Source of the DNA: a virus
IMG/VR virus record: IMGVR_UViG_3300032282_005530
Coordinates: 1-64,000 of that record
Length of the DNA: 64,000 nucleotides
Reading direction: 5' to 3' (one strand)
The notes below the pieces were generated by a model. The model made no database searches, had not been told where the DNA came from, and saw only the letters and a list, made by a program, of their open reading frames with translations. Within the stretch, counting starts at the first letter, position 1; every line of letters begins with the position of its first letter. The translations under genes and the position numbers were made by a program. Positions 38,712 to 58,618 of the stretch are shown here, piece after piece.

Positions 38712-38922
38712 TTACAAATTGAGGTACTTCTTCTTCGTCTTCTGGTAATTTTGCTCTCACTGATGGTGGATTTGAAACAACTAATTCTCCATCTGGTCCA
38801 GTAAATAGTTCAAAACCTTTTAACACTGGAACAATGTCAGTCTGAGTTAGTAGGCTATTCTGTAAAGCCATCATTACTGCTCCGAGAGCTTGATTTGATA
38901 ATTTTAATTTTTCCATTTTCAT
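38704..38922 (-). CDS. Small conserved phage protein, unknown function
   Basis: This is a 72-residue protein with the core KLSNQALGAVMMALQNSLL, followed by TDIVPVLKGFEL and a C-terminal Pro/Glu-rich tail. I recall similar proteins in marine T4-like phages, always as unknowns. It overlaps the cupin gene's stop by ATGA and the zinc-ribbon gene's start by 8 bases, so it is translationally coupled on both sides. Confidence 0.65.
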   Translation of the reverse strand: MKMEKLKLSNQALGAVMMALQNSLLTQTDIVPVLKGFELFTGPDGELVVSNPPSVRAKLPEDEEEVPQFVSE

Positions 38923-39257
38923 ACCCTTCCGTAAGAATCTTCGTATCTTACTATATCTTCTTCTGCAAATGAAGTGCCTGTTTGTACTTCTATTACTACG
39001 AGATCATCAGTTCCAACGTTTTCTAATCTGTGTTTTGTAGTTGCTGGAATAAAATATATCATTCCTGCTTGTGTTGGTGAAATTTCATCATCAAGAGTTA
39101 TTTCACCATTTCCACTTATAACACACCACAACTCATTTCTATTTTGATGAGATTGTAGACTAAACTTTTGTCCTGGCTTTACAACTAGTTTTTTTACTTT
39201 ACATTTTTCTTCTTCGTGGAGAATTTGAAACGTTCCCCAAGGTCTTGTTTCTGTCAT
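38919..39257 (-). CDS. Cupin mannose-6-phosphate isomerase-type protein
   Basis: This 112-residue single cupin matches the C-terminal isomerase domain of type II phosphomannose isomerase/ManC: RPWGTFQIL, VKPGQKFSLQSHQNRNELW (metal-binding His and Glu), GMIYFIPATTKHRLEN (third His), LVVIEVQTG and the ending EEDIVRYEDSYGR. It would convert fructose-6-P to mannose-6-P, the first committed step to GDP-mannose. It overlaps the gmd gene's stop, so it is coupled to it. The nucleotidyltransferase half of ManC and a phosphomannomutase are not visible in this window and would have to come from the host or elsewhere in the phage. Confidence 0.8.
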   Translation of the reverse strand: MTETRPWGTFQILHEEEKCKVKKLVVKPGQKFSLQSHQNRNELWCVISGNGEITLDDEISPTQAGMIYFIPATTKHRLENVGTDDLVVIEVQTGTSFAEEDIVRYEDSYGRV

Positions 39258-40234
39258 TTACTGCTCCTTTTCACATATTCTAAATCACTTTCATACATTT
39301 CTTTTGCTAATTGTTTAATATCAGTTTTAGGTTGCCAATTAAGAACTTTTTTTGCTTTTTCTGCATTTCCTAAAAGGAATGGAACTTCATGAGGCCTGAA
39401 TAATCTTGGATCTATTTCTAAATATTTATACGGATCAAGTTGAGCATTGTTAAAAACTAATTCTAAGAAATCTCTAACAGATTTCGAAATACCAGTTGCT
39501 ATTACATAATCGTCCGGTTTATCTTGTTGCAACATCAACCACATAGCCTCAACATAATCTCTTGCATGACCCCAATCTCTTTTTGCATCTAGATTTCCAA
39601 GTTGGATCTTTGCTTGTAGTCCTAATTTAATTTTGGCGGCGGCTATTGTTATTTTTCTTGTTACAAAAGTCTCACCGCGTCTTGGCGATTCATGATTAAA
39701 TAATATACCACTATTTGCATGAATATTATATGAATAACGATAATTTCTAGTTAGATTGTGTGCAAATAATTTAGCACAAGCATATGGAGACGCAGGTGTC
39801 ATCAAGCTAGTTTCTACGTATCCTATTTCTGGTGTTGGTGCATCTCCATACATTTCCGAAGAAGAAGCTTGATAAAATTTTGTATCTGGTTTTATATTTC
39901 TAATTGCTTCTAATATTCTCATAGGTCCCATTGCAACACTATCAACACTATGTTCTACTAAATCAAAAGAAACTTTTACATGAGATTGTGCAGCTATGTT
40001 GTAAATTTCATCTGGTTTATATTGTTGTATAAATCTATAAATCGAGCCATTATCATTTAAATCATAATATTCTAACTTAAAATTAGAATCTGATAATATA
40101 TGATCTATTCTATTGGTATTGATTAGACTTGTTCTTCTTTTTGTGCCAATTACTTTATATCCTTTAGACAATAAAAGTTCTGCTAAATAAGAACCATCTT
40201 GGCCAGTAACTCCAGTTATAAGTGCGGTTTTCAA
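39254..40234 (-). CDS. gmd: GDP-mannose 4,6-dehydratase, TTG start
   Basis: This 326-residue short-chain dehydrogenase has an N-terminal Rossmann motif (GVTGQDGSYLAE), the GMD signature QASSSEMYGDAP (catalytic Ser125 and Glu127) and YACAK (Tyr151, Lys155), then GILFNHESPRRGETFVTRKI, all typical of Gmd. The start is a TTG (40232-40234) with AGGAG upstream. It converts GDP-D-mannose to GDP-4-keto-6-deoxy-D-mannose, the shared precursor for L-fucose, colitose, perosamine and rhamnose. The next enzymes in the operon point to colitose. Confidence 0.92.
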   Translation of the reverse strand: MKTALITGVTGQDGSYLAELLLSKGYKVIGTKRRTSLINTNRIDHILSDSNFKLEYYDLNDNGSIYRFIQQYKPDEIYNIAAQSHVKVSFDLVEHSVDSVAMGPMRILEAIRNIKPDTKFYQASSSEMYGDAPTPEIGYVETSLMTPASPYACAKLFAHNLTRNYRYSYNIHANSGILFNHESPRRGETFVTRKITIAAAKIKLGLQAKIQLGNLDAKRDWGHARDYVEAMWLMLQQDKPDDYVIATGISKSVRDFLELVFNNAQLDPYKYLEIDPRLFRPHEVPFLLGNAEKAKKVLNWQPKTDIKQLAKEMYESDLEYVKRSSK

Positions 40235-40260
40235 AATAGACTCCTAAATATTAATATCTT

Positions 40261-41421
40261 TTAAATAACACAATTAATTAAATCACAAACTTGCTTAATA
40301 TCATCATATGTTAAATTTTGATTATTTGGTACATATAAACCATATTTATGTATTAAATCACAATTTTTTAGATTTGTTATTCCATGATTTTTAATCCAAA
40401 ATGGTTGTAATCCCATAGAGCCAGCAATCAATGGACGACACTCAATATTATTATTTTTTAATACATCTATTATTGTATTTCTATTTTTAGAAACAATTGG
40501 AAATGCAAAATTTGATATTAAATTTTCTCTCATAGCAATATTAACATTATTATTTTTAATATTATTTAAATAAGTTTTAAAATTTTCGAATCTTACTTTA
40601 GAAAAACTTTCTAAATTTTTTATTTGCCTCAAGCCTATAAAAGCTTGTAAATCCGTTGCTCTAAAATTAAATCCAGAATAATAAAATGTATATAAAGAAT
40701 CAAAACCGGTTATTTTCCACTCATCTCTAAGTTTATTTTTAAAATGTTCATTATTGTCTCGATCCCATCCGTGATTTCTGATACTCAATAGAACCTGATA
40801 CAATTCTTCATCATTTGTATTTATGAAACCACCTTCTATTGTGCTAAGGTGATGGCCAAAATAAAATGAATAAAAAGAAGCAAGTCCAAAATTTCCTAAA
40901 TATGTATCTTTATATTTACTTCCAGCACTTTCGCAATTATCTTCCAATAATAAAACATCATACTTTTTACATAATTCCACAATTCTATTCATATCTGGAA
41001 CTAATCCTAAAACTGAAACTAAAATTAAAGAAGATGGATTTTCTTTTTCGAAGATTTGCTCTAAATGTTCTAGATCACAAGATAAATCTTGTAAATTACA
41101 ATCACACAATATTACATCCATACCTAATATTTCCGGAGATGAAACATCAGTATGCCAACTTAAAGAAGGTACGACTATTTTATTGTTCTTCAATCTTCCC
41201 ATTTGTTGAAGCGCACTTAGGGTTAAAAATATCGCAGAAGAACCAGAATTAACAAATACAGAATATTTAGTACCTATTTTTTCTGCCCATCTATCTTGAA
41301 GTTCAACAGTTAATTTTCCTTTTGTTAGTTGAGGAGTATCTTCTGTACTCAACCATTCACAAAGAGATCTAATATCTTCTTTATTTATTGTATCATTTAC
41401 AAGTTTTATCATAGTATTCAT
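40261..41421 (-). CDS. colD: GDP-4-keto-6-deoxymannose 3-dehydratase (ColD-type PLP/PMP enzyme)
   Basis: This 386-residue DegT/DnrJ/EryC1-family fold type I enzyme has the PLP-binding Asp in LLLEDNCESAG (D161). At the position where aminotransferases keep the Schiff-base Lys (SFxxxK) it reads SFYFGHHLSTIEGG, so His190 replaces Lys. A His there is the known hallmark of 3-dehydratases such as ColD and of the related CDP-sugar enzyme E1. With gmd next door, the substrate should be GDP-4-keto-6-deoxymannose and the product a 3,6-dideoxy intermediate of colitose. The start may be ATG 41421 or 41412; it overlaps the next gene's end. Confidence 0.85.
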   Translation of the reverse strand: MNTMIKLVNDTINKEDIRSLCEWLSTEDTPQLTKGKLTVELQDRWAEKIGTKYSVFVNSGSSAIFLTLSALQQMGRLKNNKIVVPSLSWHTDVSSPEILGMDVILCDCNLQDLSCDLEHLEQIFEKENPSSLILVSVLGLVPDMNRIVELCKKYDVLLLEDNCESAGSKYKDTYLGNFGLASFYSFYFGHHLSTIEGGFINTNDEELYQVLLSIRNHGWDRDNNEHFKNKLRDEWKITGFDSLYTFYYSGFNFRATDLQAFIGLRQIKNLESFSKVRFENFKTYLNNIKNNNVNIAMRENLISNFAFPIVSKNRNTIIDVLKNNNIECRPLIAGSMGLQPFWIKNHGITNLKNCDLIHKYGLYVPNNQNLTYDDIKQVCDLINCVI

Positions 41422-42298
41422 ATACCTTTCTTATTCCATCAAATAGATTTATAAAATTATAATTTCCAATAATATTTAAAAGCTTTTTATTTGTTACATC
41501 TTTTCTATGTTGACCATTTGGCTTTGTTGTGTCAAAAATAATTTGCAAATTTTGATTATTAGTAGACTTTAAAGCTATTTCCGCTATTTCTTTTATATTG
41601 TAAATCTCATTATTAGATACATTACAGTTTTCAGTTATATTATTATCTAAAAATATTTTTATTATATATGCTAAATCTTTAGCATGCATAAATTGCCTTA
41701 TTGGCGTACCATCTCCATAAATTTCTATATTTTGTTTTTTATTTTTATTTGCTTCATGTATTTTTCTTATCAAAGATGAAACATAATGTGAGTTTTCATC
41801 AAATTTATCATATTCTCCATACAGATTACATGGTATTAAATAATTATATTTTTTATTATATTGTTTATTAATAGAGTCAATTTGTACTGCTAAAGTTCTC
41901 TTTGCATATGCATATGAAAAATTTGACTTAGCTGGTGGACCTTCGAATAGCATATCTTCATTCATTGGATAATTCGCAACAATATCAGGATATATGCAGG
42001 TACTTAAAACAGACAAACAATCTTCTACTGAATATTTTACACAATTTTGTAATAAGAATGTGTTCATCAATACATTTTCTTCTAAAAATTGTACTGGGTA
42101 TTTTAGATTTTCTGTTATACCGCCTACTCTTGCTGCTAGATGTATTACTTTTGTTGGCTTAATATCTTTAAAAAGCTTATCTACTTGTTGTTGACTAGTC
42201 AAATCACAGTCTTTTGAAGATAAATATATGCCTTCGAACTTTAATTCTTTAAGGAATTTGCCAACCATTCCGGAACCGCCAGTTATTAAAGTTGTCAT
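41393..42298 (-). CDS. colC: GDP-L-fucose/GDP-L-colitose synthase-type epimerase-reductase
   Basis: The 301-residue protein has a Rossmann start GGSGMVGKFL, LAARVGGI, the Fcl/ColC signature STCIYPD (residues 99-105) and the catalytic SYAYAK (Tyr129, Lys133). This family does C5 (and for fucose C3/C5) epimerisation and C4 reduction with NADPH. Fcl and ColC are homologous, so the sequence alone cannot separate them. The adjacent ColD-type gene makes colitose synthase the better call. A Shine-Dalgarno GGAG precedes the ATG. Confidence 0.75.
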   Translation of the reverse strand: MTTLITGGSGMVGKFLKELKFEGIYLSSKDCDLTSQQQVDKLFKDIKPTKVIHLAARVGGITENLKYPVQFLEENVLMNTFLLQNCVKYSVEDCLSVLSTCIYPDIVANYPMNEDMLFEGPPAKSNFSYAYAKRTLAVQIDSINKQYNKKYNYLIPCNLYGEYDKFDENSHYVSSLIRKIHEANKNKKQNIEIYGDGTPIRQFMHAKDLAYIIKIFLDNNITENCNVSNNEIYNIKEIAEIALKSTNNQNLQIIFDTTKPNGQHRKDVTNKKLLNIIGNYNFINLFDGIRKVYEYYDKTCK

Positions 42299-42897
42299 TT
42301 ATTTTTTCTCCAACACTCCCAAACAAAAGGAAAGTCATAAATTTTAATAAAATTATTTTCTATTAATAAATTTTGTATATTATTACGACGATTTTGACAA
42401 TTTTCAATAAAATCATGAAATTGAACTTGTATGGAATTTATTTTTTGAATTGTATATTTTAAATCAGCTAAATTTTCTAATAAACTATATTCTTCACCTT
42501 CTATATTTATTTGGATTAAATCAATTTTATTTAAAGAAAAAATTTCAAACAATTTTTCAATTGTAATCATTTTTATGTCTATAAAATTATCAGTTTTTTT
42601 ATAAACAGAACTAGCATCCTTGTCTAAATATATTTTTTGTGTAGTATTTTTATCTGAAATACCACAATTTAAAATGTGAACCTTTTTATTGTTTTTATAT
42701 TTTTCTACTAGTATATTATAAAATTCTGGTACAGATTCTAATAAAATTATATTAGGATTATATTTTTTAATAATTTTATCTGCCCATACACCAGTATACG
42801 CTCCTAAGTCAACAACATAACTATCTTCATTGAGCTCGTGTTGAACAGAAAATGTATTATCTCCATTCGATGAGAACCAATTATTTATATTGCTCAT
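42295..42897 (-). CDS. FkbM-type methyltransferase
   Basis: The 200-residue protein has an N-terminal SAM-binding motif (YVVDLGAYTGVWADKI), then ILLESVPEF and a second signature region KIDLIQINIEGEEYSLLE typical of the FkbM family, followed by IQVQFHDF. These enzymes usually O-methylate sugars or glycolipids. It sits between the epimerase-reductase and GT10 genes, so O-methylation of the glycan made by this operon is likely. The stop overlaps the next start (ATGA). Confidence 0.8.
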   Translation of the reverse strand: MSNINNWFSSNGDNTFSVQHELNEDSYVVDLGAYTGVWADKIIKKYNPNIILLESVPEFYNILVEKYKNNKKVHILNCGISDKNTTQKIYLDKDASSVYKKTDNFIDIKMITIEKLFEIFSLNKIDLIQINIEGEEYSLLENLADLKYTIQKINSIQVQFHDFIENCQNRRNNIQNLLIENNFIKIYDFPFVWECWRKNK

Positions 42898-42900
42898 AAT

Positions 42901-43719
42901 TCATATTTCCTTCAGTAGTAAAGAATATAACGCTCTCTCTAGCATATCATAGTTAAGACTAAGATTAAAATTAATATCAATATGCTTTTTTTTACTTTCA
43001 TAAAGTTTAAAATCTATCTTATTTATTATTTTTTCTAAATAAGATAAATTATCGAATGTTAATATGCCATCTTTATTAAAATAATCACCTATATTTGGAC
43101 AACCCCAATAAATTGGTATTGTACCAACTGCAATACAATCGATTATTTTTTCAGTAAAATACCCTTCTATTTTAGCATTTTCTACAATAATAGAAAACAT
43201 ATAATCATTTAATCCATCTTCTTTAAATTTTATTGGCTTTGTTGAGCTTCCAAAAAAATCTATGTCAAAATTATTAAATTTTTTATAAATATCGTGCCTT
43301 AATTTATGTCCTTCAAGAAAATTTTTTTCAGAAAATATCATAGATATTTTCTTACTCTTTTTTTCAATAACTTGTGGATTTTTTATCCAACAACCACCCA
43401 AAGGAAGATATAAACCATTTGAAATATTTTTTATTAAATTTATATCATGAGTATATATACGATCAAATTTAGTACAATTTTCTTCCAAATAATCATATAC
43501 ATGAGGTATTAATTTGCGGCACTCTAAAGGCATCGCAATTTTTTTACCAGAAATATTTTCTATAAAATTAGATCTAATAAAATTATCAGTAAAAATAAAA
43601 ATATTTGAATTATTAAAATTATTTCTTTCATATTCGATTAAATTAAATTCTTTATTAGGAACAGAATATTTAATATGAGAAAAGTTTGAATCAAATAAAT
43701 TAACAGTAATTTTATTCAT
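42901..43719 (-). CDS. GT10-type (alpha-1,3-fucosyltransferase family) glycosyltransferase
   Basis: The protein has 272 residues from the ATG at 43719, which overlaps the stop of the GT11 gene (ATGA); an upstream in-frame ATG at 43794 would give a 25-residue shadow extension. The hallmark YFTEKIIDCIAVGTIPIYWG and the following CPNIGDYFN match GT10 fucosyltransferases, whose nucleotide-sugar site carries this motif. Donor is probably a GDP-6-deoxy-L-sugar made by the operon, either fucose or colitose. Acceptor and linkage are unknown. Confidence 0.75.
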   Translation of the reverse strand: MNKITVNLFDSNFSHIKYSVPNKEFNLIEYERNNFNNSNIFIFTDNFIRSNFIENISGKKIAMPLECRKLIPHVYDYLEENCTKFDRIYTHDINLIKNISNGLYLPLGGCWIKNPQVIEKKSKKISMIFSEKNFLEGHKLRHDIYKKFNNFDIDFFGSSTKPIKFKEDGLNDYMFSIIVENAKIEGYFTEKIIDCIAVGTIPIYWGCPNIGDYFNKDGILTFDNLSYLEKIINKIDFKLYESKKKHIDINFNLSLNYDMLERALYSLLLKEI

Positions 43720-44495
43720 ATTTTTATCCAGTCTTCCGGAAAAAGATCTTGTGTATCTTGTGGACCAAATTCGCCAAACCACTTGATGGGACAAATTACC
43801 TTTTTTTGTTTATTTTTATTTAACCATGCAGACCACCAACTAAAAGTACTATTTGCAATAACATTAAAAGAACATCTAGACATTAAATATAGATCTATAT
43901 AATCTTGTTCGTTATTAATAAATTGTAAATTTTTAAATTTTAAATTATGTTTGCACCATTCTACATCGTCACTGAACAATAAAATATTTTTATCTTCGTT
44001 TAAAATTTGTAATGCATTTTTATAATATTCAATATCACATACTGGATGTATTTTAGGATATCTCAAGTAATCGCCTCTTCTAACATGTAAAGAAATTGAA
44101 TTATTAAAATCTATATTCGAATATTTTTTATTTATATAAGAACTTATTTCTTCTGTTTCTTCAAATAATTTTTTAATGTCTTCTTTATGATCGATAAAAT
44201 ATTTTTCACTCTGAAAATATCCATCTAAAATTTGATTATTTTCAAGTGTAATTTGTTCATATGAAAATTTTTTTTCATTAAAAGATTTTAAATATAAATT
44301 TGGCTTTTCTTTTGATAATATAATTTTTGAAAAAATATTATTTTTATATTTATCAAAACTATATCCGTGAATTGAAGTATTGACATAGTTTTGATAAATG
44401 ACTAATTCTGTTGAAAGATTTTTGGATAAAGAAAAAGCCGCAGCTATTTGAAATAGCTGATTTCCTAGTCCGCCTTTTAAATTGCAGGATATCAT
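43716..44495 (-). CDS. GT11-type (alpha-1,2-fucosyl/colitosyltransferase) glycosyltransferase
   Basis: This 259-residue protein begins MISCNLKGGLGNQLFQIAAA, the GT11 N-terminal signature, and carries the donor-binding motif HVRRGDYL (137-144) followed by a C-terminal FNVIANSTFSWWSAWLN block, typical of alpha-1,2-fucosyltransferases. Known colitosyltransferases of E. coli O-antigen clusters belong to the same family. With ColD/ColC in the same operon, transfer of colitose is a specific inference. Coupled by ATGA to the GT2 gene upstream. Confidence 0.85.
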   Translation of the reverse strand: MISCNLKGGLGNQLFQIAAAFSLSKNLSTELVIYQNYVNTSIHGYSFDKYKNNIFSKIILSKEKPNLYLKSFNEKKFSYEQITLENNQILDGYFQSEKYFIDHKEDIKKLFEETEEISSYINKKYSNIDFNNSISLHVRRGDYLRYPKIHPVCDIEYYKNALQILNEDKNILLFSDDVEWCKHNLKFKNLQFINNEQDYIDLYLMSRCSFNVIANSTFSWWSAWLNKNKQKKVICPIKWFGEFGPQDTQDLFPEDWIKI

Positions 44496-45226
44496 ATGTT
44501 TAATTTATTATATGGTATTTTATTTCTTATTTTACGATCGGTTGATAATTGTAGATTAAGATTTACTTTATGATCATTTATTGGATTGCTAGTATTATAG
44601 CAATAAAGAATATCAGATACACATTTATGTTTTCCACCACTCATCTCTAACATCGGAAACATTATGGCTAAATCCCACGCCATTCTATAAAATTCACCAT
44701 CATCATCTTTTAAGTCTTCTATTTTTATATTTTTCCAAAGTTTATATTTAAAAGTTCTTAAATGACTCGCTCTCCATGTGTCTTTTCTATAAAGATTATT
44801 TTTTATAACATTTTCTGAATACGAAGTAACATTTGAAGGTAAAATTCCTTGTGGATAATGTACATAAGTTCCATATGTTAACAATATATCTTCGTTAGAA
44901 TAATAATAATTTAACTTATACAAAGCAAAATCATCAAATAACCAGTCATCTCCATCTAATAATACTATAACATCTTCATCGCTTGGTTTTGAATAGTTAA
45001 TAGTATCATAAATATTTTTTAAAGCATATTTTTTTTCAGTATTCGTTATAATATTTAATTTAGGATCCTTATATTTATTTAATACTTCTAATCCACGATC
45101 TGTAGAAATATCATCAGAAAAATAACATGAAAAATTATCATATTTTTGAGATAATAAACTTTCTACCGTTTTAGACAACCATTTTTCTGTGTTATAAAAT
45201 GGAATTATAATTTTAAAATTAATCAT
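44492..45226 (-). CDS. GT2-family glycosyltransferase
   Basis: The 244-residue protein has the GT-A fold start FKIIIPFYNTEKWLSKTVESL, SDDISTDRG and the nucleotide-metal motif VIVLLDGDDWLFDD (DxD-type), followed by LTYGTYVHYP and WRASHLRTFKYKLW. It adds a sugar from an NDP donor; donor and acceptor are not readable. Overlaps the GT11 start by ATGA. It may extend the same glycan chain. Confidence 0.8.
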   Translation of the reverse strand: MINFKIIIPFYNTEKWLSKTVESLLSQKYDNFSCYFSDDISTDRGLEVLNKYKDPKLNIITNTEKKYALKNIYDTINYSKPSDEDVIVLLDGDDWLFDDFALYKLNYYYSNEDILLTYGTYVHYPQGILPSNVTSYSENVIKNNLYRKDTWRASHLRTFKYKLWKNIKIEDLKDDDGEFYRMAWDLAIMFPMLEMSGGKHKCVSDILYCYNTSNPINDHKVNLNLQLSTDRKIRNKIPYNKLNI

Positions 45227-45229
45227 ATT

Positions 45230-45835
45230 TTAATGTCCTACTTTATACATGATATAGTCTGAAATATAGATTTTTGCTTTATTGTCAATACTCTTCTTTA
45301 AGAAGAAAAAATCTTCTGCTTCACTAGATTCAAATAATATATTATTTTCTTTTAAAAAAGATGTTTTTATAGCAAAAGATATACCTACATTTCCAACATA
45401 TAAAGAGTTATTTCCATATCTTGGAATTATTGTTCCATCTTTTAAAATCATTCTAAATATGCAAAAATCAAAATCATTTTTATTTGATTCCAATTTTAAT
45501 GCTTCAACATAATCAGATGACAAAGTATCGTCATCATCTAAAAAGCCTATCCACTCGGAATCAATCTGTTTGTTTAGTAAATGATTTCTAACGCCGCCGG
45601 CTTTACTGTGATTTTGTGCTTTAAAATCAACATTTTTTAAAAAACCTGTTTTAGGAAGATAAAAATAATTTATTCTATCGTCTTGCATTGGTATTTTTAT
45701 TTGTTGTTCAGTTAATCCATCAAATCCAACATAAGCACACCAATCATCTTGGCTTTGTTTTATTAATGAATTTAAAGAATTATTTAAACTTTCTCTCGCT
45801 ACACTTGGTATAATAAAAGTAATAAATTTTTTCAT
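45230..45835 (-). CDS. GT2-family glycosyltransferase, short
   Basis: The protein has about 201 residues from the ATG at 45835, which overlaps the previous stop (ATGA); an in-frame ATG at 45865 would only add ten residues. The start ITFIIPSVARESLNNSLNSL and the sequence EWIGFLDDDDTLSSDYVEAL (DxD motif) identify a GT2 catalytic core. It is short for the family and ends soon after FFLKKSIDNKAKIYIS, so it has only the core domain. Donor unknown. Confidence 0.75.
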   Translation of the reverse strand: MKKFITFIIPSVARESLNNSLNSLIKQSQDDWCAYVGFDGLTEQQIKIPMQDDRINYFYLPKTGFLKNVDFKAQNHSKAGGVRNHLLNKQIDSEWIGFLDDDDTLSSDYVEALKLESNKNDFDFCIFRMILKDGTIIPRYGNNSLYVGNVGISFAIKTSFLKENNILFESSEAEDFFFLKKSIDNKAKIYISDYIMYKVGH

Positions 45836-46890
45836 AATATTATTTTTGATATTTTGTTGTTCCAAATTTTTCCAAACAATACATGATCGCTTATCATCTG
45901 TTTATCATTCTTTTTTTCTCCAACAGAATTAAATGTCAAAGATTCATCATGCCAAAAAAATAAATCTTTTCCATAATACATCACTTTCTTATTGTCTTCA
46001 GAAACTCTCAGACAAATATCAACATCCTGAAAGTTTTTCGAAAGTGAAGGATTTAATCCGCCATTTTTAATAAACCAAAATAAATCATATAAATGAAAAG
46101 CACCGGTTATAAATGTTTCACCTTTATCGCAATTTACTAAATGATTATTGGGTTTAGAAAATCTTTTAAAATGTAGTGGATTATATAATATTGGATTATT
46201 TGCAAATTGTATCCAAGCTCCACCTCCAAATTGAACTGTTCCTCTCCATTTTCCATCTTTCATATCTGGAAAATGTTGCTTCACATTTTCACTATCTTCT
46301 GTATGGCCTCTAAATGATTTAAGAGGATAAAGAAGTTTAGTTCCGGAAATAGTTGAACCATCTTCTCTGTGCTTTTTAATTATTGTTTCTAAGTATTCTC
46401 TTTTTTCAACCCATAAATCATTATTCCACAATATTATTTCTTCACAACCTAATTTGTTGGCGACATATGCTCCAATATTACAAAGCATTGAAAAGTTGAA
46501 ACCCTTTTGATTATCAACTTGTAATAAAGAAAGAGAAGAGTATTTTAAAAGAGACGAATAATCATCTGTAGAACGATCATCAACTACCATTATATTACAA
46601 ATCTCATCAACCTTGTTGATGAATAAATTATTCAAAGTATATTCAATTAAATCTAGATTATTCCTTGAAGGAATAATAATAAATGGTTTTGTTTTATCAA
46701 ATTGTGTTTTTTGTTTTGTAAATTTGCAAATATATTCAACATCAATAGATTTAAATTTCGCTTGTTCTCCAATTACTTCATCAAGCAAGATTTCTTTTTG
46801 TTTGACTATAAATTTATCTGTAAAAATATCTATATCTTCATTAAATAAATTACACTCAAAGAATAATTTCTGTTCCATCTGATTTTCCAT
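45832..46890 (-). CDS. GT2-family glycosyltransferase with N-terminal extension
   Basis: The 352-residue protein carries an N-terminal ~60-residue extension, then FIIIPSRNNLDLIEYTLNNL, MVVDDRSTDDYSSLL, and EIILWNNDLWVEKREYLET, the DxD-like catalytic site. A FITGAFHLYDLFWF region and QDVDICLRVSEDNKK follow. This is the layout of rhamnosyl- or galactofuranosyl-type GT2 enzymes, but the donor cannot be set. The start overlaps the upstream gene by 23-35 bases (ATG 46890 or 46878). Confidence 0.75.
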   Translation of the reverse strand: MENQMEQKLFFECNLFNEDIDIFTDKFIVKQKEILLDEVIGEQAKFKSIDVEYICKFTKQKTQFDKTKPFIIIPSRNNLDLIEYTLNNLFINKVDEICNIMVVDDRSTDDYSSLLKYSSLSLLQVDNQKGFNFSMLCNIGAYVANKLGCEEIILWNNDLWVEKREYLETIIKKHREDGSTISGTKLLYPLKSFRGHTEDSENVKQHFPDMKDGKWRGTVQFGGGAWIQFANNPILYNPLHFKRFSKPNNHLVNCDKGETFITGAFHLYDLFWFIKNGGLNPSLSKNFQDVDICLRVSEDNKKVMYYGKDLFFWHDESLTFNSVGEKKNDKQMISDHVLFGKIWNNKISKIIL

Positions 46891-48088
46891 TCAATACTTG
46901 AACAAATTTTTGTACTTGTTTTTGTTCCGCAAATTCTTCTAAAATATATTCTTTTAATTTCCTTGCTGGAGCAAGAGCAGCACCATAGTTCTTTTGTACT
47001 TTTCTCATAGCGTCCATGACACTACTTTCTTTAACAAAGCACCACTGACTATCTGCTTGTATCACGCCTTCCCAAACTGCTTCTTTGTTTACATTTGCCA
47101 AATCAAAATCGATACTTGTAAAATGATTTCTCATTCTTACCTTGCCGTCTTCTTTAAGCGGTGCAAGTAGAAAATCAACATGACCACTCCACTTAGGAGC
47201 GATTACCGGAAGTCCATTGCATACCGCTTCGAACAATGGTAATCCAAATCCTTCTCCGTGGGTTGTTGATACAATTGCCTTAATTTTTGGATGAGTATAA
47301 AGAGATTGCATTTCTTCATCGCTCATATTACCATGAAGGAGATATACTTTGCATTTTGCATCTGTAAATTCCTTCTTTAGTAGTTCAATTCTTTTTTCGC
47401 ACATCAATCTGTCAGCGATACAGTTTTTGGCAAAGTTCAACTTCAAAACCAACCCAACATCAGCATCATTTTTAAACTCTTTTAAAAAGGCTTTGATAGT
47501 TGTTTCGACATTTTTCCTTGGTCCCCACTGTGCAACAGAAAGGAAGTTAAAATCGGTTTTTAAATCGAGATTAATTTCTTTTTGTTCTAATTTCTTAACC
47601 GGAAAATGAACCACTTCAACTGGAGTTGTATTTTTAAAATCTATTACTTGACCTGTTTGTGGGTGTTGTAATTTATACTCTGTTACATCAAATATCTGCT
47701 TCGAATGATTGGATACAACAATAATTTTATCCATTAATCTTGCTTTATCAATCCACTGTGGAGAAACTTTTGTTGTTTCAATACCAGCTGTATATCCGAT
47801 ATTTACAGCCGCTATTTTTTCAAATTCGTTTGGTATAGTGATCTGAATACTTATATCAAATGGACCTTTTTGTTGAATGTATCCATGAGTTTTGGCCATT
47901 AATCCTGCAAGCCATTCTGTTTCTTGTGATTGTTCAATTGTCCAACCGGTTTTTCCCCAAGGAATATTAACAAGATATATGTCGAATAGGTCTTCTCTTG
48001 TTCGTAGAGAACGAAGTGCAAATCTCGCTTGTTCTCCGTAACCACTTAAAGATAAAGCTGGTCCTTTTACTAAAACTTTCTTTCTCAT
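46856..48088 (-). CDS. GT4-family glycosyltransferase
   Basis: This is a 410-residue GT-B enzyme. KGPALSLSGYGEQARFAL at the N-terminus is the glycosyltransferase loop. FNFLSVAQWGPRKNVETTIKAF is a donor-site start, and ALVSTT-like IVSTTHGEGFGLPLFEAVC supplies the E-x7-E catalytic region. It lies in the glycosylation operon and overlaps the upstream GT4 gene by ATGA. Donor and acceptor are unknown. The neighbouring gene is similar, so the pair may act on successive sugars. Confidence 0.85.
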   Translation of the reverse strand: MRKKVLVKGPALSLSGYGEQARFALRSLRTREDLFDIYLVNIPWGKTGWTIEQSQETEWLAGLMAKTHGYIQQKGPFDISIQITIPNEFEKIAAVNIGYTAGIETTKVSPQWIDKARLMDKIIVVSNHSKQIFDVTEYKLQHPQTGQVIDFKNTTPVEVVHFPVKKLEQKEINLDLKTDFNFLSVAQWGPRKNVETTIKAFLKEFKNDADVGLVLKLNFAKNCIADRLMCEKRIELLKKEFTDAKCKVYLLHGNMSDEEMQSLYTHPKIKAIVSTTHGEGFGLPLFEAVCNGLPVIAPKWSGHVDFLLAPLKEDGKVRMRNHFTSIDFDLANVNKEAVWEGVIQADSQWCFVKESSVMDAMRKVQKNYGAALAPARKLKEYILEEFAEQKQVQKFVQVLNGKSDGTEIIL

Positions 48089-49350
48089 GCGATCTCCTTA
48101 AAGGTCCAACGAGCATAATTTTTTCTATTTTCCCATGAACCACGCTCATTATACATTTTTGTAAAGATTTCATCCCACTTATTCATAAGAGTTGCAGTAT
48201 TATAGTTTATTTGTAAATGATTTCTGCCGGCAGTTCCAAGTGCGCGTCTTTCTTGCTCGCTCATATTATAAATTTTTAATAGAGCATTTATAAAATCATC
48301 TTTATTTACTCGATCTTCATAAATAAATGGAACTTCTTGAGAGCCAACAATCATTTGTGAAACAATTGGCAATTCAACACCAAAATAATTTCCATTTTCA
48401 TCTTTTACTTGTTCTTGTAGTCCACCGGTTCTTGGAACGATTATTGGAGTTTCACATGCTAAACTTTCCATGGTTGAAAGACCAAATCCTTCGGCATCAG
48501 ATAGGCTTACTGTTACGTCGGCAAGATTATACATCGCTGCTAAATCTAATGGACCTACTCTTGAAGGAGAGAACATAACTTCTCCATTTGACAAACCTAA
48601 TTCTGCGATGATTGCTTCAAGATTTGGCCCATGTACATCTTTAGGATCTGTGTGCATCAATAGTTTGGCTTTATCTTTTCCTACAATTTTTAGGAAATCA
48701 GCAAACCACCATACAACACTTCCAGGATTTTTTCTACGAGCATTTCTACTGTTCCAAAATACAGTAAATTTTTTAACCGGGTCTTTTGGAAAGATCATCT
48801 TTCTAAAATTATTTATTTGTTCCTCGGGCATCCTTTTAAACATATCCATGTCGACCGAATGAGGAACATAATGTGTTTCTACTTCTGGGGCCACATTTCT
48901 AACAATATCATCTGTTACTTTTGATATTGTTGCTATTATATCGTTAGACACATAAAAAGGTTTATTGAATTTTGGATATGGATAATTGTCCCATACATGA
49001 TAATAAATCATGGGAACATTGCAACGAATTTCGTCTTCTATTTCCCATAACCAACCATAAAAACGAGGATCTGTCATAAACCAAAGAATATCTGGTTTTT
49101 GTTGCTTTAAAATTTGTCTTATAAGATCTTGCGTACCATATCCATCAACTGGGACTATGATAAAATCATCGCCCCATTCATGGGTTTTTTGTGGGCGATA
49201 ATCATTGTGCTTCATCGCACCACCAAGGCATATGAAAGAATACTTACCAGTCTTTAACATCGCCTCGATCATATATCTGGTTTGAGTTCCAACACCAGAA
49301 GGCGATAATGGATGATCTGATATTGTTAATATCTTAATTTTTTTATTCAT
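48085..49350 (-). CDS. GT4-family glycosyltransferase
   Basis: This is a 421-residue GT-B enzyme. It opens KIKILTISDHPLSPSGVGTQTRY and has FWNSRNARRKNPGSVVWWFADF in the hinge region and DVTVSLSDAEGFGLSTMESLAC (E-x7-E) at the donor site. A Shine-Dalgarno GAGGAAG precedes its ATG, so it probably leads the glycosyltransferase series. Its donor is not readable from sequence. Confidence 0.88.
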   Translation of the reverse strand: MNKKIKILTISDHPLSPSGVGTQTRYMIEAMLKTGKYSFICLGGAMKHNDYRPQKTHEWGDDFIIVPVDGYGTQDLIRQILKQQKPDILWFMTDPRFYGWLWEIEDEIRCNVPMIYYHVWDNYPYPKFNKPFYVSNDIIATISKVTDDIVRNVAPEVETHYVPHSVDMDMFKRMPEEQINNFRKMIFPKDPVKKFTVFWNSRNARRKNPGSVVWWFADFLKIVGKDKAKLLMHTDPKDVHGPNLEAIIAELGLSNGEVMFSPSRVGPLDLAAMYNLADVTVSLSDAEGFGLSTMESLACETPIIVPRTGGLQEQVKDENGNYFGVELPIVSQMIVGSQEVPFIYEDRVNKDDFINALLKIYNMSEQERRALGTAGRNHLQINYNTATLMNKWDEIFTKMYNERGSWENRKNYARWTFKEIA

Positions 49351-54203: not shown

Positions 54204-54277
54204 TGGTTGGGGAACAGGGACTCGAACCCCGATAAGTGGAATCAAAATCCACGGTCCTGCCATTAGACGATTCCCCA
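54204..54277 (-). tRNA. trnQ: tRNA-Gln (UUG)
   Basis: Acceptor TGGGGAA (from 54277) pairs with TTCCCCA (54208-54214), with discriminator A and encoded CCA at 54204-54206. Anticodon loop TTTTGAT in a GTGGA/TCCAC stem gives UUG. T-arm CGGGG-TTCGAGT-CCCTG. It follows the tRNA-Leu region. Confidence 0.95.
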
Positions 54278-54286
54278 ATAAAATTA

Positions 54287-54868
54287 TTAAATATTATTAA
54301 TTAATTCTTCAAACTTTTCGAATGATTCTCCAAAAATTATATGTGAATTATTTTTTATTTTTTCTCTACTCCAATTCCACCATTCTGATTTTAAAAGAAT
54401 ATCTATTTGTCTATCAGTAAATCTCTTCTTTACAACTTTTCCTGGATTACCAACAACAATAGAATACGGCTCTATATCTTTTGCTACTACGGCATGTGTT
54501 CCTATTACTGAACCTGTTCCTATTTTAACACCGGATAAAATTGTAGAAGATCTGCCTAGCCAAACATCATTCTCGATTATAATGTTTCCTTTAGTTAATA
54601 ATTCTGTTGTTGTATCTGACTTCATATCTAAATCCGGTAGATATGTTGTTATACGTTTTATATTGTGGTTTCCTCCCAGAAAGAAAGATACTTGTGCTGC
54701 TATAGAGCAAAATTTTCCTATTTTTAATTTAGCCTGATGCTCAGTAGCTTGTTCGTAATAAACAACAGAATTTAACAAAGAATTAAAACTAACAGTTATT
54801 CTTGTTGAAGAATCGATGTTTATTATGTGTGGTATATCTTTATGCTTGTGAAGTTCAACTGCCATCAT
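54287..54868 (-). CDS. Hexapeptide-repeat acetyltransferase (CatB/XAT-like)
   Basis: The protein has 193 residues. Left-handed beta-helix repeats are visible in KIGKFCSIAAQVSFFLGGNH, then IIENDVWLGRSSTILSGV and KIGTGSVIGTHAVVAKDI, ending in YSIVVGNPGKVVKKRF. The Asn-His of GGNHN is the usual acetyltransferase catalytic His site of the XAT class. It lies between tRNA-Gln and tRNA-Leu. It may acetylate a sugar of the glycan made by the upstream operon, or another small molecule; the substrate is not readable. Confidence 0.75.
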   Translation of the reverse strand: MMAVELHKHKDIPHIINIDSSTRITVSFNSLLNSVVYYEQATEHQAKLKIGKFCSIAAQVSFFLGGNHNIKRITTYLPDLDMKSDTTTELLTKGNIIIENDVWLGRSSTILSGVKIGTGSVIGTHAVVAKDIEPYSIVVGNPGKVVKKRFTDRQIDILLKSEWWNWSREKIKNNSHIIFGESFEKFEELINNI

Positions 54869-54893
54869 ATATTTATAATTTTATATTAATATT

Positions 54894-54980
54894 TGGTGCC
54901 CCGAGCCGGAATCGAACCGGCATGACCTTGCGGTCGGCGGATTTTAAGTCCGCTGCGTCTACCTGTTCCGCCATCGGGGC
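54894..54980 (-). tRNA. trnL: tRNA-Leu (UAA)
   Basis: Acceptor GCCCCGA (from 54980) pairs with TCGGGGC, discriminator A, CCA encoded at 54894-54896. Anticodon arm GCGGA-CTTAAAA-TCCGC gives UAA. A long variable arm (GACCGCAAGGTC) marks class II. Confidence 0.95.
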
Positions 54981-55017
54981 AGGAACGAGATCAGTATAAC
55001 ACCGATCTCCCGGTCTG

Positions 55018-55533
55018 TCAAGCCGCTGCCATCTGCTTTGTGTATTCAAAGAGCATAATGTTACACGCTTGCGCCGTATTTAAACAAAAACCTATTCCCG
55101 GCATTGGAATTTGTACAACTTCACTGTGCTGGAGAATATCGGATGGTACTCCTGTTTGTTCGTTCCCCACCACAATACAGACCTTACGATCTGTCGGATA
55201 CGCATAATCATACAAACTCCTTGAGCTGTCTGTTAATTCCGCTGATACAATATGAATATTATTCTCTCTGCAATAAGTTAAAAAATGATGTGGATTAGAA
55301 AACTTTTGAAGTTCTATGAAGTCACTTGTAGTACCTGAAAGCTCTCTTAGTTCTTTTGGTTCCGGACAACAACCAATCAGATTTACTTTACTTGCTCCAA
55401 AACAAGCAGCGGCCCTTATAACATAACCAATATTTGGTTCATGTTTAAAATTAATACAAGCAACCTCTACTGGAAACTTAACAGAGAGTTTTTCTTTGTT
55501 CTTATATCTTTCTCGACGAGTTTCACCGCGCAT
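55018..55533 (-). CDS. SpoU/TrmH-family RNA 2'-O-methyltransferase
   Basis: The protein has about 171 residues from the ATG at 55533 with GGAG eight bases upstream (the in-frame 55557 ATG overlaps the upstream gene). SpoU motif 1 is NIGYVIRAAACFGAS, motif 2 is VCIVVGNEQTGVP and motif 3 is IPMPGIGFCLNTAQACNIMLFEY (shown in shortened parts), with a Cys where Ser often sits. These SPOUT enzymes methylate ribose of tRNA or rRNA from AdoMet. It is embedded in the tRNA cluster, so phage tRNA modification is a natural guess. Confidence 0.85.
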   Translation of the reverse strand: MRGETRRERYKNKEKLSVKFPVEVACINFKHEPNIGYVIRAAACFGASKVNLIGCCPEPKELRELSGTTSDFIELQKFSNPHHFLTYCRENNIHIVSAELTDSSRSLYDYAYPTDRKVCIVVGNEQTGVPSDILQHSEVVQIPMPGIGFCLNTAQACNIMLFEYTKQMAAA

Positions 55534-55535
55534 AT

Positions 55536-55856
55536 TCACTCCATAAAAAGAAAACAACTTGTTGGCATATTATCAGAGCATTCAATATTCCTTAGTTCTT
55601 CTTTACAAAGATAAATCATTTGCAAATCTGGTAGTTCTACGTTACACATTTCTCCATCTTTTACAACTTTATCGCAATCTTCTACATCAAATCCAGTACA
55701 GGCATGTGCTTGTACACACAAAACTTCATATGCATCATTACAAGCAGATTTTTTCTTATTTAATGACATTTGTAGTTCTACTGCATTTTTAGCAGTAATA
55801 CCAAATAAAAAACCACCCGCTAATCCTATAATACAAAAAAGAATATTTTTTTTCAT
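55536..55856 (-). CDS. Cysteine-rich protein with N-terminal signal/anchor
   Basis: The protein has 106 residues. The first ~20 residues, MKKNILFCIIGLAGGFLFGI, are a signal peptide or membrane anchor. The rest has eight or nine Cys (for example ACNDAYEVLCVQAHACTGF, then CDKVVKDGEMCN), a pattern of extracytoplasmic disulfide-rich proteins. Its start overlaps the stop of the YkuK-like gene by ATGA. Function unknown; location in the periplasm or envelope is inferred. Confidence 0.6.
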   Translation of the reverse strand: MKKNILFCIIGLAGGFLFGITAKNAVELQMSLNKKKSACNDAYEVLCVQAHACTGFDVEDCDKVVKDGEMCNVELPDLQMIYLCKEELRNIECSDNMPTSCFLFME

Positions 55857-56341
55857 GTATTTAATCCTTTTCTCTTTGTTCCATCATTACCTTTATGAAC
55901 TATGAAATCGGCAGCATAAATAGCAAAAATAGAATCAGGCTTACAGTATGCTTTAAATCCCATCGATTCAGCATACCCAATAGCACCAGCAACAAGTCGA
56001 CTCGATTCATAGGTAATATCTGGATTCAAATCAAAGTCAATACATTCAATATCTATTGAATAATCGTCTCTTAACGTCGTAGCAAACTCAATTGCTTTCT
56101 CGACCTCAACCCAAAGACGAACTTGTGGTTCTTCAATTTTAGCAATTTTTTCTTTTGAATAAAGAATAAAAGCACCACTCTTGTCTGGATGAATTCCGAC
56201 AAGAGTAGTAATAAAGACAGTTTTATCCTTGATGTTCATACTATCACATCCAACACGATATTTAATATTTGGATGTTTTGAAATCACATCTTCTAGTGAT
56301 ACTTCTGAACCATCGTGTAAAGTTTTAATTTTTAGTTCCAT
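55853..56341 (-). CDS. YkuK-like predicted RNase H-fold protein
   Basis: The protein has about 162 residues starting at the ATG 56341 (MELKIKTL), with AGGA six bases upstream. The longer in-frame start at 56395 runs through a terminator hairpin. KYRVGCDSMNIKDKTVFITTL, IECIDFDLNPD and ESSRLVAGAIGYAESMGF match the YkuK/DUF458 family of RNase H-like fold. The role of this family in phages is unknown; RNA or nucleotide binding is possible. Confidence 0.7.
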   Translation of the reverse strand: MELKIKTLHDGSEVSLEDVISKHPNIKYRVGCDSMNIKDKTVFITTLVGIHPDKSGAFILYSKEKIAKIEEPQVRLWVEVEKAIEFATTLRDDYSIDIECIDFDLNPDITYESSRLVAGAIGYAESMGFKAYCKPDSIFAIYAADFIVHKGNDGTKRKGLNT

Positions 56342-56365
56342 AAACATTCCTAGGAATATAAACAA

Positions 56366-56393
56366 GACTGCCCTGTTTTTAGGCAGGGCAGTC
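56366..56393 (-). terminator. Likely Rho-independent terminator
   Basis: A perfect 10-bp stem GACTGCCCTG (56366-56375) with CAGGGCAGTC (56384-56393) and an 8-nt loop lies between the gene at 56407 and the YkuK-like gene. On the minus strand it is followed by TTGTTTATATT, a moderate U-tract. Confidence 0.65.
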
Positions 56394-56406
56394 ATCTAAT
56401 CATCTA

Positions 56407-56724
56407 TCAAGTAGCAGGCTTCCAACCAAGCTTTTTAAAGTGTTCTGAACGAGAACTAAACCACTCTCGTCCCTTCTCTGAATCATTGCGGGAGATAAAT
56501 TTAATTCCTTTTGTAGTTACTGGATAAGCTACATGCTTCAATCCACTTAGATTAGCAAGTGCTACTGTCTTTACTCGGAAAGGAATTTCATCAACCATAA
56601 CAACCATTCCGTGTTGTGGAACGAAATTAGCCTCAACAGTCTTTACGAGTGTTGAATTCTGGTGTTCTTCACGACCACGAAGTTCAAGATCAAGATTTAG
56701 TTCAATTGTACGCTTATCAGACAT
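56407..56724 (-). CDS. Small protein of unknown function
   Basis: The protein has about 105 residues from ATG 56724 (MSDKRTIELNLDLELRG) with AAGGAG upstream; an in-frame ATG at 56745 lies before that Shine-Dalgarno. Beta-rich with a VPQHGMVVMVDEIPFRVK core and an ending EWFSSRSEHFKKLGWKPAT. Located between the dCMP deaminase and YkuK-like genes. No recognised motif. Confidence 0.6.
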   Translation of the reverse strand: MSDKRTIELNLDLELRGREEHQNSTLVKTVEANFVPQHGMVVMVDEIPFRVKTVALANLSGLKHVAYPVTTKGIKFISRNDSEKGREWFSSRSEHFKKLGWKPAT

Positions 56725-56757
56725 AACATTTCTCCTTTTGTTCAAGTGTCGGTAGTC

Positions 56758-57192
56758 TCAATCTACCATGCACATATCATATCTTTCTACATCAATACCA
56801 GATTTTTTTAAGATGTCTAATCCTTTTGAATCTCGGTATTCATCACAAAAAATAACTTTTTTAATTCCAGCATTAACAATCATACGAGCACAAACAGGAC
56901 AAGGCGAATGAGTGAGATACATTTTTTTGTTTCTGTGATCTCCAAAATTCATCTTGATCAACGCATTTGCTTCTGCGTGGATGAACCCACTTTTACCCGG
57001 CTCCATACTATCAGGTTGATTATTTCCACCTTGCTCGTCTCCGTTGTAACCAATAGCAAGAACACTAGTATTGTCTTCTGTAACAATTACAGAACCAACT
57101 TTCAATCTGGGATCACGGGAACGTTCTGCGATATGCAGAGTTAATCCCATCCAGATTTCATCCCACTTTGGTTTTTTCTTTGGTCTTGCCAT
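56758..57192 (-). CDS. dCMP/deoxycytidylate deaminase
   Basis: The protein has about 144 residues from ATG 57192 (MARPKKKPK), with GGGGAAAAGT upstream. The zinc site is HAEANALIK (His and catalytic Glu) plus PCPVCARMI, with a GYNGDE motif (residues ~50-55), a family hallmark of dCMP deaminases that feed dUMP into thymidylate synthesis. Phage deaminases help to rebalance the dNTP pool for AT-rich genomes, which fits this one. Short overlap with the upstream zinc-finger gene. Confidence 0.9.
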   Translation of the reverse strand: MARPKKKPKWDEIWMGLTLHIAERSRDPRLKVGSVIVTEDNTSVLAIGYNGDEQGGNNQPDSMEPGKSGFIHAEANALIKMNFGDHRNKKMYLTHSPCPVCARMIVNAGIKKVIFCDEYRDSKGLDILKKSGIDVERYDMCMVD

Positions 57193-57376
57193 ACTTTTCC
57201 CCATAACATTCATCACAAAGTTTTTCTTCTTGTAATGTTGTCCATTCCCATTCATTCATACAACAATCACAAAGCTTTGATGGGTCTTTAATCGCCGCTC
57301 TATTCGCTTTTGACAAGACTCTTGCTGCTTTTAATGCTGCTTTAAGTATTTTGCCTTCTTTTTTATTTTCATTCAT
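57158..57376 (-). CDS. Small zinc-knuckle protein
   Basis: The protein has 72 residues. The N-terminal half is a Lys/Ala helix (KAALKAARVLSKANRAA). The C-terminal half has two cysteine pairs, LCDCCMNEWEW and KLCDECYGEKYG, that can coordinate one zinc. Overlaps the deaminase start by 35 bases. Possibly nucleic-acid or protein binding; otherwise unknown. Confidence 0.6.
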   Translation of the reverse strand: MNENKKEGKILKAALKAARVLSKANRAAIKDPSKLCDCCMNEWEWTTLQEEKLCDECYGEKYGKTKEKTKVG

Positions 57377-57380
57377 GATT

Positions 57381-57457
57381 TGGCGCTCTCGGAGAGATTC
57401 GAACTCCCGACCTTACGGGTAGAAACCGTCGGCTCTATCCAACTGAGCTACGAGAGC
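57381..57457 (-). tRNA. trnR: tRNA-Arg (UCU)
   Basis: Acceptor GCTCTCG pairs with CGAGAGC; discriminator G, CCA encoded at 57381-57383. The anticodon loop TTTCTAC gives UCU, decoding AGA/AGG, which fits an AT-rich genome. One G-A mismatch sits at the outer anticodon stem pair. Confidence 0.95.
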
Positions 57458-57465
57458 ATTTCCTT

Positions 57466-57630
57466 TCACTTTCCTAATACACGATACAAATCAAAACATC
57501 CACTACACTGACCTATTGATAATACGATAATCAATAGGGTTGAAACGGCGCCCAACTGTCTTGAAAATTCTTTTACAGCACCGGCCCAAGTTTCAGTAAC
57601 TACAATCGTATTTTTATTCTGTTCTGTCAT
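57466..57630 (-). CDS. Short membrane protein between tRNA genes
   Basis: This 54-residue reading frame runs from an ATG at 57630, preceded by AGAGAAGAAA, to TGA 57466-57468. The product starts MTEQNKNTIVVTETWAGAV, has a predicted transmembrane helix (VSTLLIIVLSIGQCSGCF) and ends YRVLGK. It fills the gap between tRNA-Arg and tRNA-Asn. Its small size makes it easy to miss, and it may be a phage membrane peptide. No family recognised. Confidence 0.5.
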   Translation of the reverse strand: MTEQNKNTIVVTETWAGAVKEFSRQLGAVSTLLIIVLSIGQCSGCFDLYRVLGK

Positions 57631-57643
57631 TTTCTTCTCTATT

Positions 57644-57720
57644 TGGCTGTCCAGGTTGGGGTCGAACCAACGACTTCGTGATTAACAGTCACGCGCTACT
57701 ACCAACTGAGCTACTGGACA
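57644..57720 (-). tRNA. trnN: tRNA-Asn (GUU)
   Basis: Acceptor TGTCCAG pairs with CTGGACA; discriminator G, CCA encoded at 57644-57646. Anticodon arm GTGAC-TGTTAAT-CAC-type with loop CTGTTAA gives GUU. Its 5' end is overlapped for 32 bases by the end of the HNH endonuclease gene. Confidence 0.95.
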
Positions 57721-58186
57721 ATAAAATATTTCTTTCATTTTTGTCTATCATATTTCTGATATTTTCAATTTTATCAGAAAATCTTTTATCTGTTTCATAT
57801 TTTTTAAATATGTATGAATTATTTTCTATGTGGGTTTTTATTCGGTGGCAATTTGCGCATAATATTCTACATTTTGCTATTTCATTTTTTATAGCTTCAG
57901 ACTTTACACCTATTCTTACCATTTCAGAAACAGACTCAGTTTTATTATCAATATGATCAAACTCTAAAACCATTGGATTTTGTTCTTCGCATATAAAACA
58001 TTTGTGCGCTTCTTTTATTTCTAAAACTACATCTTGTAAACGATTTCTGTTATTTTTTACTCTTTCTTGTTGCTTTAATTTATTTTTATTCCACCAAATA
58101 CTTTGATTTTTTTTATTACATGAACGACATTGTTTTCTTCCATTTTTGTAAACTACTTTTTCTTCATTATGCTCTTTACAAATCAC
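57689..58186 (-). CDS. HNH homing endonuclease fitted between two tRNAs
   Basis: The protein has 165 residues. An N-terminal zinc ribbon (MICKEHNEEK ... RKQCRSCNKK) precedes the HNH region: CFICEEQNPMVLEFDHIDN (with the D-H catalytic pair) and CRILCANCHRIKTH. The start lies one base from the encoded CCA of tRNA-Ile. The last nine codons (SSSSVGSSA) and the TGA stop are read from the D-arm and anticodon stem of tRNA-Asn. It fits a mobile endonuclease that sits in the tRNA cluster, with an origin by insertion at tRNA boundaries inferred. Confidence 0.85.
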   Translation of the reverse strand: MICKEHNEEKVVYKNGRKQCRSCNKKNQSIWWNKNKLKQQERVKNNRNRLQDVVLEIKEAHKCFICEEQNPMVLEFDHIDNKTESVSEMVRIGVKSEAIKNEIAKCRILCANCHRIKTHIENNSYIFKKYETDKRFSDKIENIRNMIDKNERNILLSSSSVGSSA

Positions 58187-58187
58187 T

Positions 58188-58263
58188 TGGTACTCCCGGT
58201 GGGATTCGAACCCACATTTGTACGCTTATAAGGCGCGCGCATTAACCGTAATGCTACAGGAGT
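58188..58263 (-). tRNA. trnI: tRNA-Ile (UAU)
   Basis: Acceptor ACTCCTG pairs with CGGGAGT; discriminator A, CCA encoded at 58188-58190. Anticodon loop CTTATAA gives UAU, reading AUA directly. Bacteria usually read AUA with a lysidine-modified CAU tRNA, so this phage tRNA supplies an independent decoder for a codon that is common in this AT-rich genome. Confidence 0.85.
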
Positions 58264-58372
58264 AAATAGTACTTATAACTTGTAAGAGACTTATAAAACT
58301 TCTACCGAGTTACGAGAGCACATGCATGCATCATAGCAGAGATCGCTGGCCGCGTCAAGCACGGCACAACGG

Positions 58373-58618
58373 TCATTTATTTTTTTTATTCTTTTTTGGC
58401 GTTTCTTCTGTTTGAACTAATGCTGGATTTGTTCTTACTTTGACTACAAATGTTTCAACTCCAGCAGCGTTTACAAAACGTTTTACTTTTACCTGTTTTG
58501 TTTCATCGGATAGAAAAGTTTTTCTAAATGTATCCGCTTCTCCGAATGTTGAAAACACTCGCTTATTATCCCATGGTGGTCCATCTTTATGTGGAACTTT
58601 TTCAACTTGTTCTGTCAT
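58373..58618 (-). CDS. Small protein of unknown function
   Basis: This 81-residue protein starts MTEQVEKVPHKDGPPWDNK and ends with a Lys-rich tail (TPKKNKKNK). The core FSTFGEADTFRKTFL / KQVKVKRFVNAAGVETFVVKV reads as a small alpha-beta domain. Overlaps the next gene by 17 bases. No recognised family. Confidence 0.55.
   Translation of the reverse strand: MTEQVEKVPHKDGPPWDNKRVFSTFGEADTFRKTFLSDETKQVKVKRFVNAAGVETFVVKVRTNPALVQTEETPKKNKKNK

Follow-up and report, generated by a model that had tools for sequence, protein, structure and literature searches.

Colitose belongs, with its 3,6-dideoxy relatives, to the sugars of bacterial surface antigens, and is itself rare. Bacteria make guanosine diphosphate (GDP)-colitose with the products of gmd, colC and colD, usually accompanied by manC; the pathway is represented by E. 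coli, whose ColD is PDB entry 2gms, and by operons on alphaproteobacterial plasmids. In the ColD reaction a histidine acts as base without an iron-sulfur (Fe-S) cluster, the intermediate is hydrolysed, and transamination occurs with glutamate (PMC8987622). An enzyme set of the same kind is encoded in the stretch of phage DNA analysed here, referred to as the window, which is bases 1-64000 of the 82,365-base IMG/VR virus record IMGVR_UViG_3300032282_005530, classed as linear and possibly a fragment. Seven open reading frames (ORFs) at 38919-44495, all on the minus strand, lie in the transcription order GT11, GT10, FkbM, Fcl-type, ColD-type, Gmd and a lone phosphomannose isomerase (PMI) cupin, where GT denotes a glycosyltransferase family. 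An earlier note on this DNA had proposed a phage-borne GDP-colitose route in this seven-gene operon; the ORFs are present at the positions it gave, with Pfam and NCBIfam matches that agree with its families.

We consider it likely that the product of this operon is GDP-L-colitose, or else a very closely related GDP-3,6-dideoxy-L-hexose, and that it is derived from host GDP-mannose. From gene content and order, enzyme families, catalytic residues, purifying selection and conservation across viruses, we infer the following scheme. Gmd would convert GDP-mannose to GDP-4-keto-6-deoxymannose. The ColD-type enzyme would next remove O3 from this product with the help of pyridoxamine or pyridoxal phosphate (PMP/PLP) and glutamate; His190 would serve as the acid/base, and no Fe-S partner would be involved. 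The Fcl/ColC-type enzyme would then epimerise C5 and reduce C4 with NADPH, and GT10 and/or GT11 would attach the resulting sugar to a glycan that is built by the GT2/GT4-like enzymes encoded alongside and is destined for a virion protein or the host surface. Use of GDP-colitose by GT10/GT11 is plausible.

Identity of the ColD-type enzyme and its partners

The ColD-type protein matches DegT/DnrJ/EryC1 in Pfam (E=2e-58), and in a sequence search of PDB its first hit was E. coli ColD 2gms (1e-54), followed by E1 (2e-30) and perosamine synthase (2e-27). An AlphaFold2 model with a mean predicted local distance difference test score (pLDDT) of 85.6 and a predicted template modelling score (pTM) of 0.86 also had ColD 2gms as its top Foldseek match, with other aminotransferase-fold entries scoring close behind. 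The model loop at 189-193 around His190 is poorly modelled (pLDDT <50) and no pocket geometry was read from it. In alignment, His190 falls opposite ColD His188, where ArnB has lysine, which bears out the earlier statement that histidine occupies the PLP-lysine site. The same is true of all ColD/RfbH-type homologues aligned, and of 73/73 distinct rows of a larger set. Cysteines 251, 253 and 261 of RfbH are absent from the window enzyme, its relatives and bacterial ColD, and neither these Fe-S cysteines nor nearby RfbF/RfbG, which are features of the RfbH/E1 pathway to cytidine diphosphate (CDP)-3,6-dideoxyhexoses, were found in the window. Four residues (W89, E164, R254 and N366) are invariant across bacterial and viral ColD-type enzymes and differ in RfbH-type enzymes. 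In the tree, the viral enzymes join bacterial ColD with support of 98/99, apart from RfbH, and form a sister branch to the bacterial ColD clade rather than lying inside it. The ColD-type assignment of the earlier note holds up by sequence, motif, tree, fold and context, with 3-dehydration as the predicted activity.

As to the origin of the enzyme, an exact-peptide scan of the genome collection with the ColD-type protein gave weak or partial matches only, and no clear donor emerged from 297 genomes of the phylum of G010, a Lentimicrobium metagenome-assembled genome. The latter scan did return a textbook gmd-ColC-ColD operon and a single close relative, which is located in a heptose-like cluster.

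The best NCBIfam match of the Fcl-type protein is Fcl NF047922, at 204 bits and under its cut-off of 500, and the protein keeps the Ser/Cys/Tyr/Lys/His positions of K-12 Fcl (107, 109, 136, 140, 179). Lysine at Fcl position 187 was considered as a marker of ColC and dropped, as the GDP-L-fucose synthase of PDB entry 4b8w has an aligned lysine too.

No match to a manC-type (PF00483) or manB-type (PF02878) gene was found anywhere in the 82,365-bp record, and both profiles were detected in 14/14 control genomes; the absence remarked on earlier for the operon extends to the rest of the record. Similarly, no manC-type gene was found in six related records, all possibly fragments, and no ManB among the best 80 related loci. 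Because neither type of gene was found in the record, GDP-mannose must come from the host. The missing ManB/ManC is a feature of supply and lies outside the dedicated colitose steps.

Conservation in viruses and an exchangeable end module

A profile scan of IMG/VR identified at least 584 viral loci encoding relatives of the ColD-type enzyme, and the best 80 of these were used for neighbourhood counts. Fcl lies immediately upstream of ColD at 54/73 loci with enough flank, Gmd is no more than 1.2 kb downstream of ColD at 62/72, and the two occur together at 45 of the 65 loci with both flanks. The Fcl-ColD-Gmd arrangement is not due to chance, because the order is kept in many divergent viral contigs and the ratio of nonsynonymous to synonymous substitution rates (dN/dS) of the ColD-type enzyme relative to that of locus L002 (76% identical) is ~0.07, with dS near saturation. 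The corresponding ratios, again with dS near saturation, are 0.13 for Fcl, 0.11 for Gmd and ~0.25 for GT10/GT11. The phage-borne gene set described earlier is confirmed but is not a one-off, as the isolated Synechococcus phages ACG-2014f and S-CAM7 carry Gmd-Fcl-ColD-GT11 and relatives occur in hundreds of IMG/VR contigs. Its PMI and FkbM genes are accessory: both were rejected as core parts for being rare among relatives, with PMI in 0/6 related records and ~2/80 related loci, and FkbM in 8/80 loci. A second ColD-type gene, 33-36% identical to that of the window, is present in the same viral locus at L007 3979-5136, at L100 3010-4122, and near 7146-8267 in L085, L091 and L092.

At 70 viral loci with 2.4 kb or more of sequence upstream of ColD, Fcl is adjacent in 52, and 14 have instead a two-subunit thiamine diphosphate (ThDP) enzyme together with a different short-chain dehydrogenase/reductase (SDR); none has both and four have neither by these criteria. 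The 14 loci are L055, L056, L061, L066, L067, L069, L077, L084, L088, L089, L090, L097, L101 and L112, and the ThDP enzyme is of the transketolase type or, in some loci, of the E1-dehydrogenase type. Mutual exclusion of Fcl and the ThDP enzyme gives a Fisher p=1.6e-11, a value inflated by several loci being near-copies; a safe figure for switches of the end-module label on the ColD tree is at least five, or six if L065, whose flank is too short and which is labelled Fcl by default, is counted as Fcl. For ThDP enzymes of the YerE, alpha-keto acid dehydrogenase and transketolase kinds, the attachment of carbon branches to keto sugars is either known or has been proposed; the substrate of YerE is CDP-3,6-dideoxy-4-keto-glucose (PMC12247030). 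Two alternative modules, each of a kind fitted to a 4-keto deoxy sugar, in one slot beside ColD provide independent support for a ColD-type enzyme that makes a 4-keto-3,6-dideoxy intermediate, and suggest that the ThDP/SDR relatives make C4-branched 3,6-dideoxy sugars. An evenly balanced proposal is that of a modular phage factory for GDP-3,6-dideoxyhexoses, in which a ColD-Gmd trunk would be completed by an end module that is either Fcl/ColC-type (colitose) or ThDP plus SDR (C4-branched, of the yersiniose/octose kind), with phage glycosyltransferases decorating virions or remodelling the host surface in infection.

Alternative readings of the operon

Several observations weigh against assigning the operon to GDP-colitose. 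The ColD-type enzyme is only 32% identical to E. coli ColD, which is about the distance between ColD and RfbH, and support for the grouping with ColD falls to 91/88 once the bacterial L048 enzyme is added, which itself falls among the viral ones. This nearest bacterial relative found (L048 4902-8586, bacterial genome G177) is a His-type 3-dehydratase encoded beside a transketolase pair in a heptose-like cluster, indicating that the clade is not tied to a single sugar, and Gmd is missing from the 74-kb record of relative G006. In addition, the known colitosyltransferase WbgN takes GDP-fucose as well as GDP-colitose, and therefore the glycosyltransferase families do not fix the sugar. Finally, the viral Fcl-type branch joins neither ColC nor Fcl and residues do not separate the two, so the Fcl-type enzyme could make GDP-fucose in parallel. 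This last point leads to a two-sugar alternative, in which Gmd and Fcl supply GDP-L-fucose to GT10/GT11, both of them fucosyltransferase families, and the ColD-type enzyme leads to a second sugar, a 3-deoxy one, that is finished by a host reductase or an undetected phage one. Cyanophage S-SCSM1, with its mannose-6-phosphate isomerase (MPI), Gmd, Fcl and fucosyltransferases, is reported as having such a GDP-fucose route (PMC9602691). However, there is a single epimerase/reductase, the reading frame of which overlaps that of ColD by 4-29 nt in the window and in all nine viral loci checked (9/9). The gene set is also that of bacterial ColC-ColD and gmd-fcl-ColD operons, in which the frames are coupled likewise, and loci without Fcl have the ThDP enzyme and another SDR in its slot. 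We therefore regard the two-sugar arrangement as unlikely, if the most serious competitor to a GDP-colitose route.

Far less probable is a perosamine-type role for the DegT enzyme, as an ordinary aminotransferase that acts on sugars and yields an amino sugar. The fold is shared, phage records name relatives 'aminotransferase', and SpnQ, also His-type, can transaminate without its reductase, whereas neither ColD nor E1 has this transaminase activity (PMC8987622). Against it, the catalytic lysine is replaced by histidine throughout, and perosamine synthase was outscored by both ColD and E1 in the PDB search. We give equally little credence to a route that resembles the colitose one but acts on a different GDP-sugar, such as a 6-deoxyheptose, and leads to a related but distinct deoxy sugar. 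The GHMP kinase-like and nucleotidyltransferase-like genes that, together with the transketolase pair, accompany L048 speak for such a route, but the 4,6-dehydratase of the window clears the Gmd equivalog cut-off and matches GDP-mannose 4,6-dehydratase 1n7g best in PDB (E=7e-107), compared with 1e-33 for GDP-heptose dehydratase 7us5.

The glycosyltransferase island and known systems

The seven-gene run is part of a longer glycosyltransferase island, which extends upstream as far as 49350 and adds three GT2-like and two GT4-like genes (Table 1). As had been noted earlier, adjacent genes overlap briefly: by 4 nt at PMI/Gmd, Fcl/FkbM, GT10/GT11 and GT11/next gene, and by 29 nt at ColD/Fcl, with short gaps at Gmd/ColD and FkbM/GT10. 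The start of GT10 is most likely the ATG at 43719 rather than the listed TTG at 43794, because the L002 orthologue begins at the equivalent ATG. Promoter-like sites in the island show no excess over shuffled sequence and no promoter is claimed.

Table 1. Coordinates of the sugar operon and adjoining glycosyltransferase genes in the window
Feature	Position	Strand	Evidence and remarks
Single-domain cupin, type II PMI (= C-terminal domain of ManC)	38919..39257	-	PF01050 (MannoseP_isomer) E=1.4e-29; accessory
Gmd, GDP-mannose 4,6-dehydratase, TTG start	39254..40234	-	TIGR01472 436 bits (cut-off 415)
ColD-type GDP-4-keto-6-deoxymannose 3-dehydratase (predicted)	40261..41421	-	His190 at PLP-lysine site, without Fe-S cysteines
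Fcl/ColC-type C5-epimerase/C4-reductase, proposed GDP-colitose synthase	41393..42298	-	NAD epimerase family; conserved catalytic residues
FkbM-family methyltransferase	42295..42897	-	TIGR01444 and PF05050; accessory
GT10-family glycosyltransferase	42901..43719	-	PF00852 E=6e-8; start re-set
GT11-family glycosyltransferase, alpha-1,2-fucosyl/colitosyl type	43716..44495	-	PF01531 E=1e-29; phrog_2644 E=5e-61
GT2-family glycosyltransferase	44492..45226	-	PF00535 E=1e-18
GT2-like glycosyltransferase	45230..45865	-	PF00535 E=1e-5
GT2-like glycosyltransferase	45832..46890	-	PF00535 E=1e-4, just under its cut-off
GT4-like glycosyltransferase, phrog_2170 type	46856..48088	-	phrog match
GT4-like glycosyltransferase, phrog_2170 type	48085..49350	-	phrog match

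The record belongs to a tailed phage with contractile-tailed kin, as it carries baseplate-wedge, late-sigma and PhoH-like genes, the baseplate genes having their best matches in Microcystis and Flavobacterium phages at only ~29% identity. No strongly hydrophobic segment was detected in any island protein tested, and the enzymes look cytoplasmic, as would fit a role in glycosylating either a virion protein or a lipid-linked precursor of the host. DNA hypermodification was also considered as the purpose, and the record, itself a fragment, argues weakly against it in having no thymidylate-synthase-type gene. Elsewhere in the window, a 2520-aa protein with FG-GAP repeats at 13201-20763 may be an adhesin or a virion protein that bears glycans, and a ten-gene tRNA block at 54204-61188 includes an unassigned tRNA at 60243-60327 with an anticodon reading gtag. 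Past ~77.5 kb, outside the window, GC content of the record (G000; L023 14500-19366) rises from ~30% to ~55% with repetitive ORFs, possibly an assembly join or a foreign segment.

The retention of sugar genes by a virus lineage under purifying selection, and the hundreds of contigs with related genes, imply that making the sugar is of benefit in infection, and an exchangeable last step predicts which sugar each virus makes. This bears on why phages carry sugar genes, for which glycosylation of virions and exclusion of superinfection are among the possible reasons. The route is unnamed in phage records, in which the enzymes are called 'aminotransferase' or 'epimerase', and no paper naming a phage colitose route was found in the open-licence literature.

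Among phages, ACG-2014f and S-CAM7 resemble the window in their cassette and in the histidine at the lysine site, but differ in having ~30% ColD identity and the bacterial gene order. The loci fetched gave no PMI or GT10 match, and their records list two nucleotide-sugar epimerases, an aminotransferase and a glycosyltransferase and do not name a colitose route. The cell-wall gene set of S-SCSM1 shares with the window a single-domain type II MPI, Gmd, Fcl and fucosyltransferases on a phage, but no ColD step is reported (PMC9602691). S-H68, AG-345-D19 and copy B of the huge phage LR756502 also encode a His-type 3-dehydratase on phages, but these RfbH/E1-type enzymes have cysteines in the Fe-S region and branch outside the ColD clade. 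A complete O-antigen cluster differs from the island in its Wzx/Wzy-type membrane protein (flippase or polymerase), which was not seen among the island proteins tested. Compared with the bacterial GDP-colitose pathway, the window is phage-borne, has the order Fcl-ColD-Gmd, carries a lone PMI cupin instead of ManC and would draw on host GDP-mannose, yet it shares with that pathway a His-type, Fe-S-free 3-dehydratase whose reading frame overlaps that of the ColC/Fcl-type gene.
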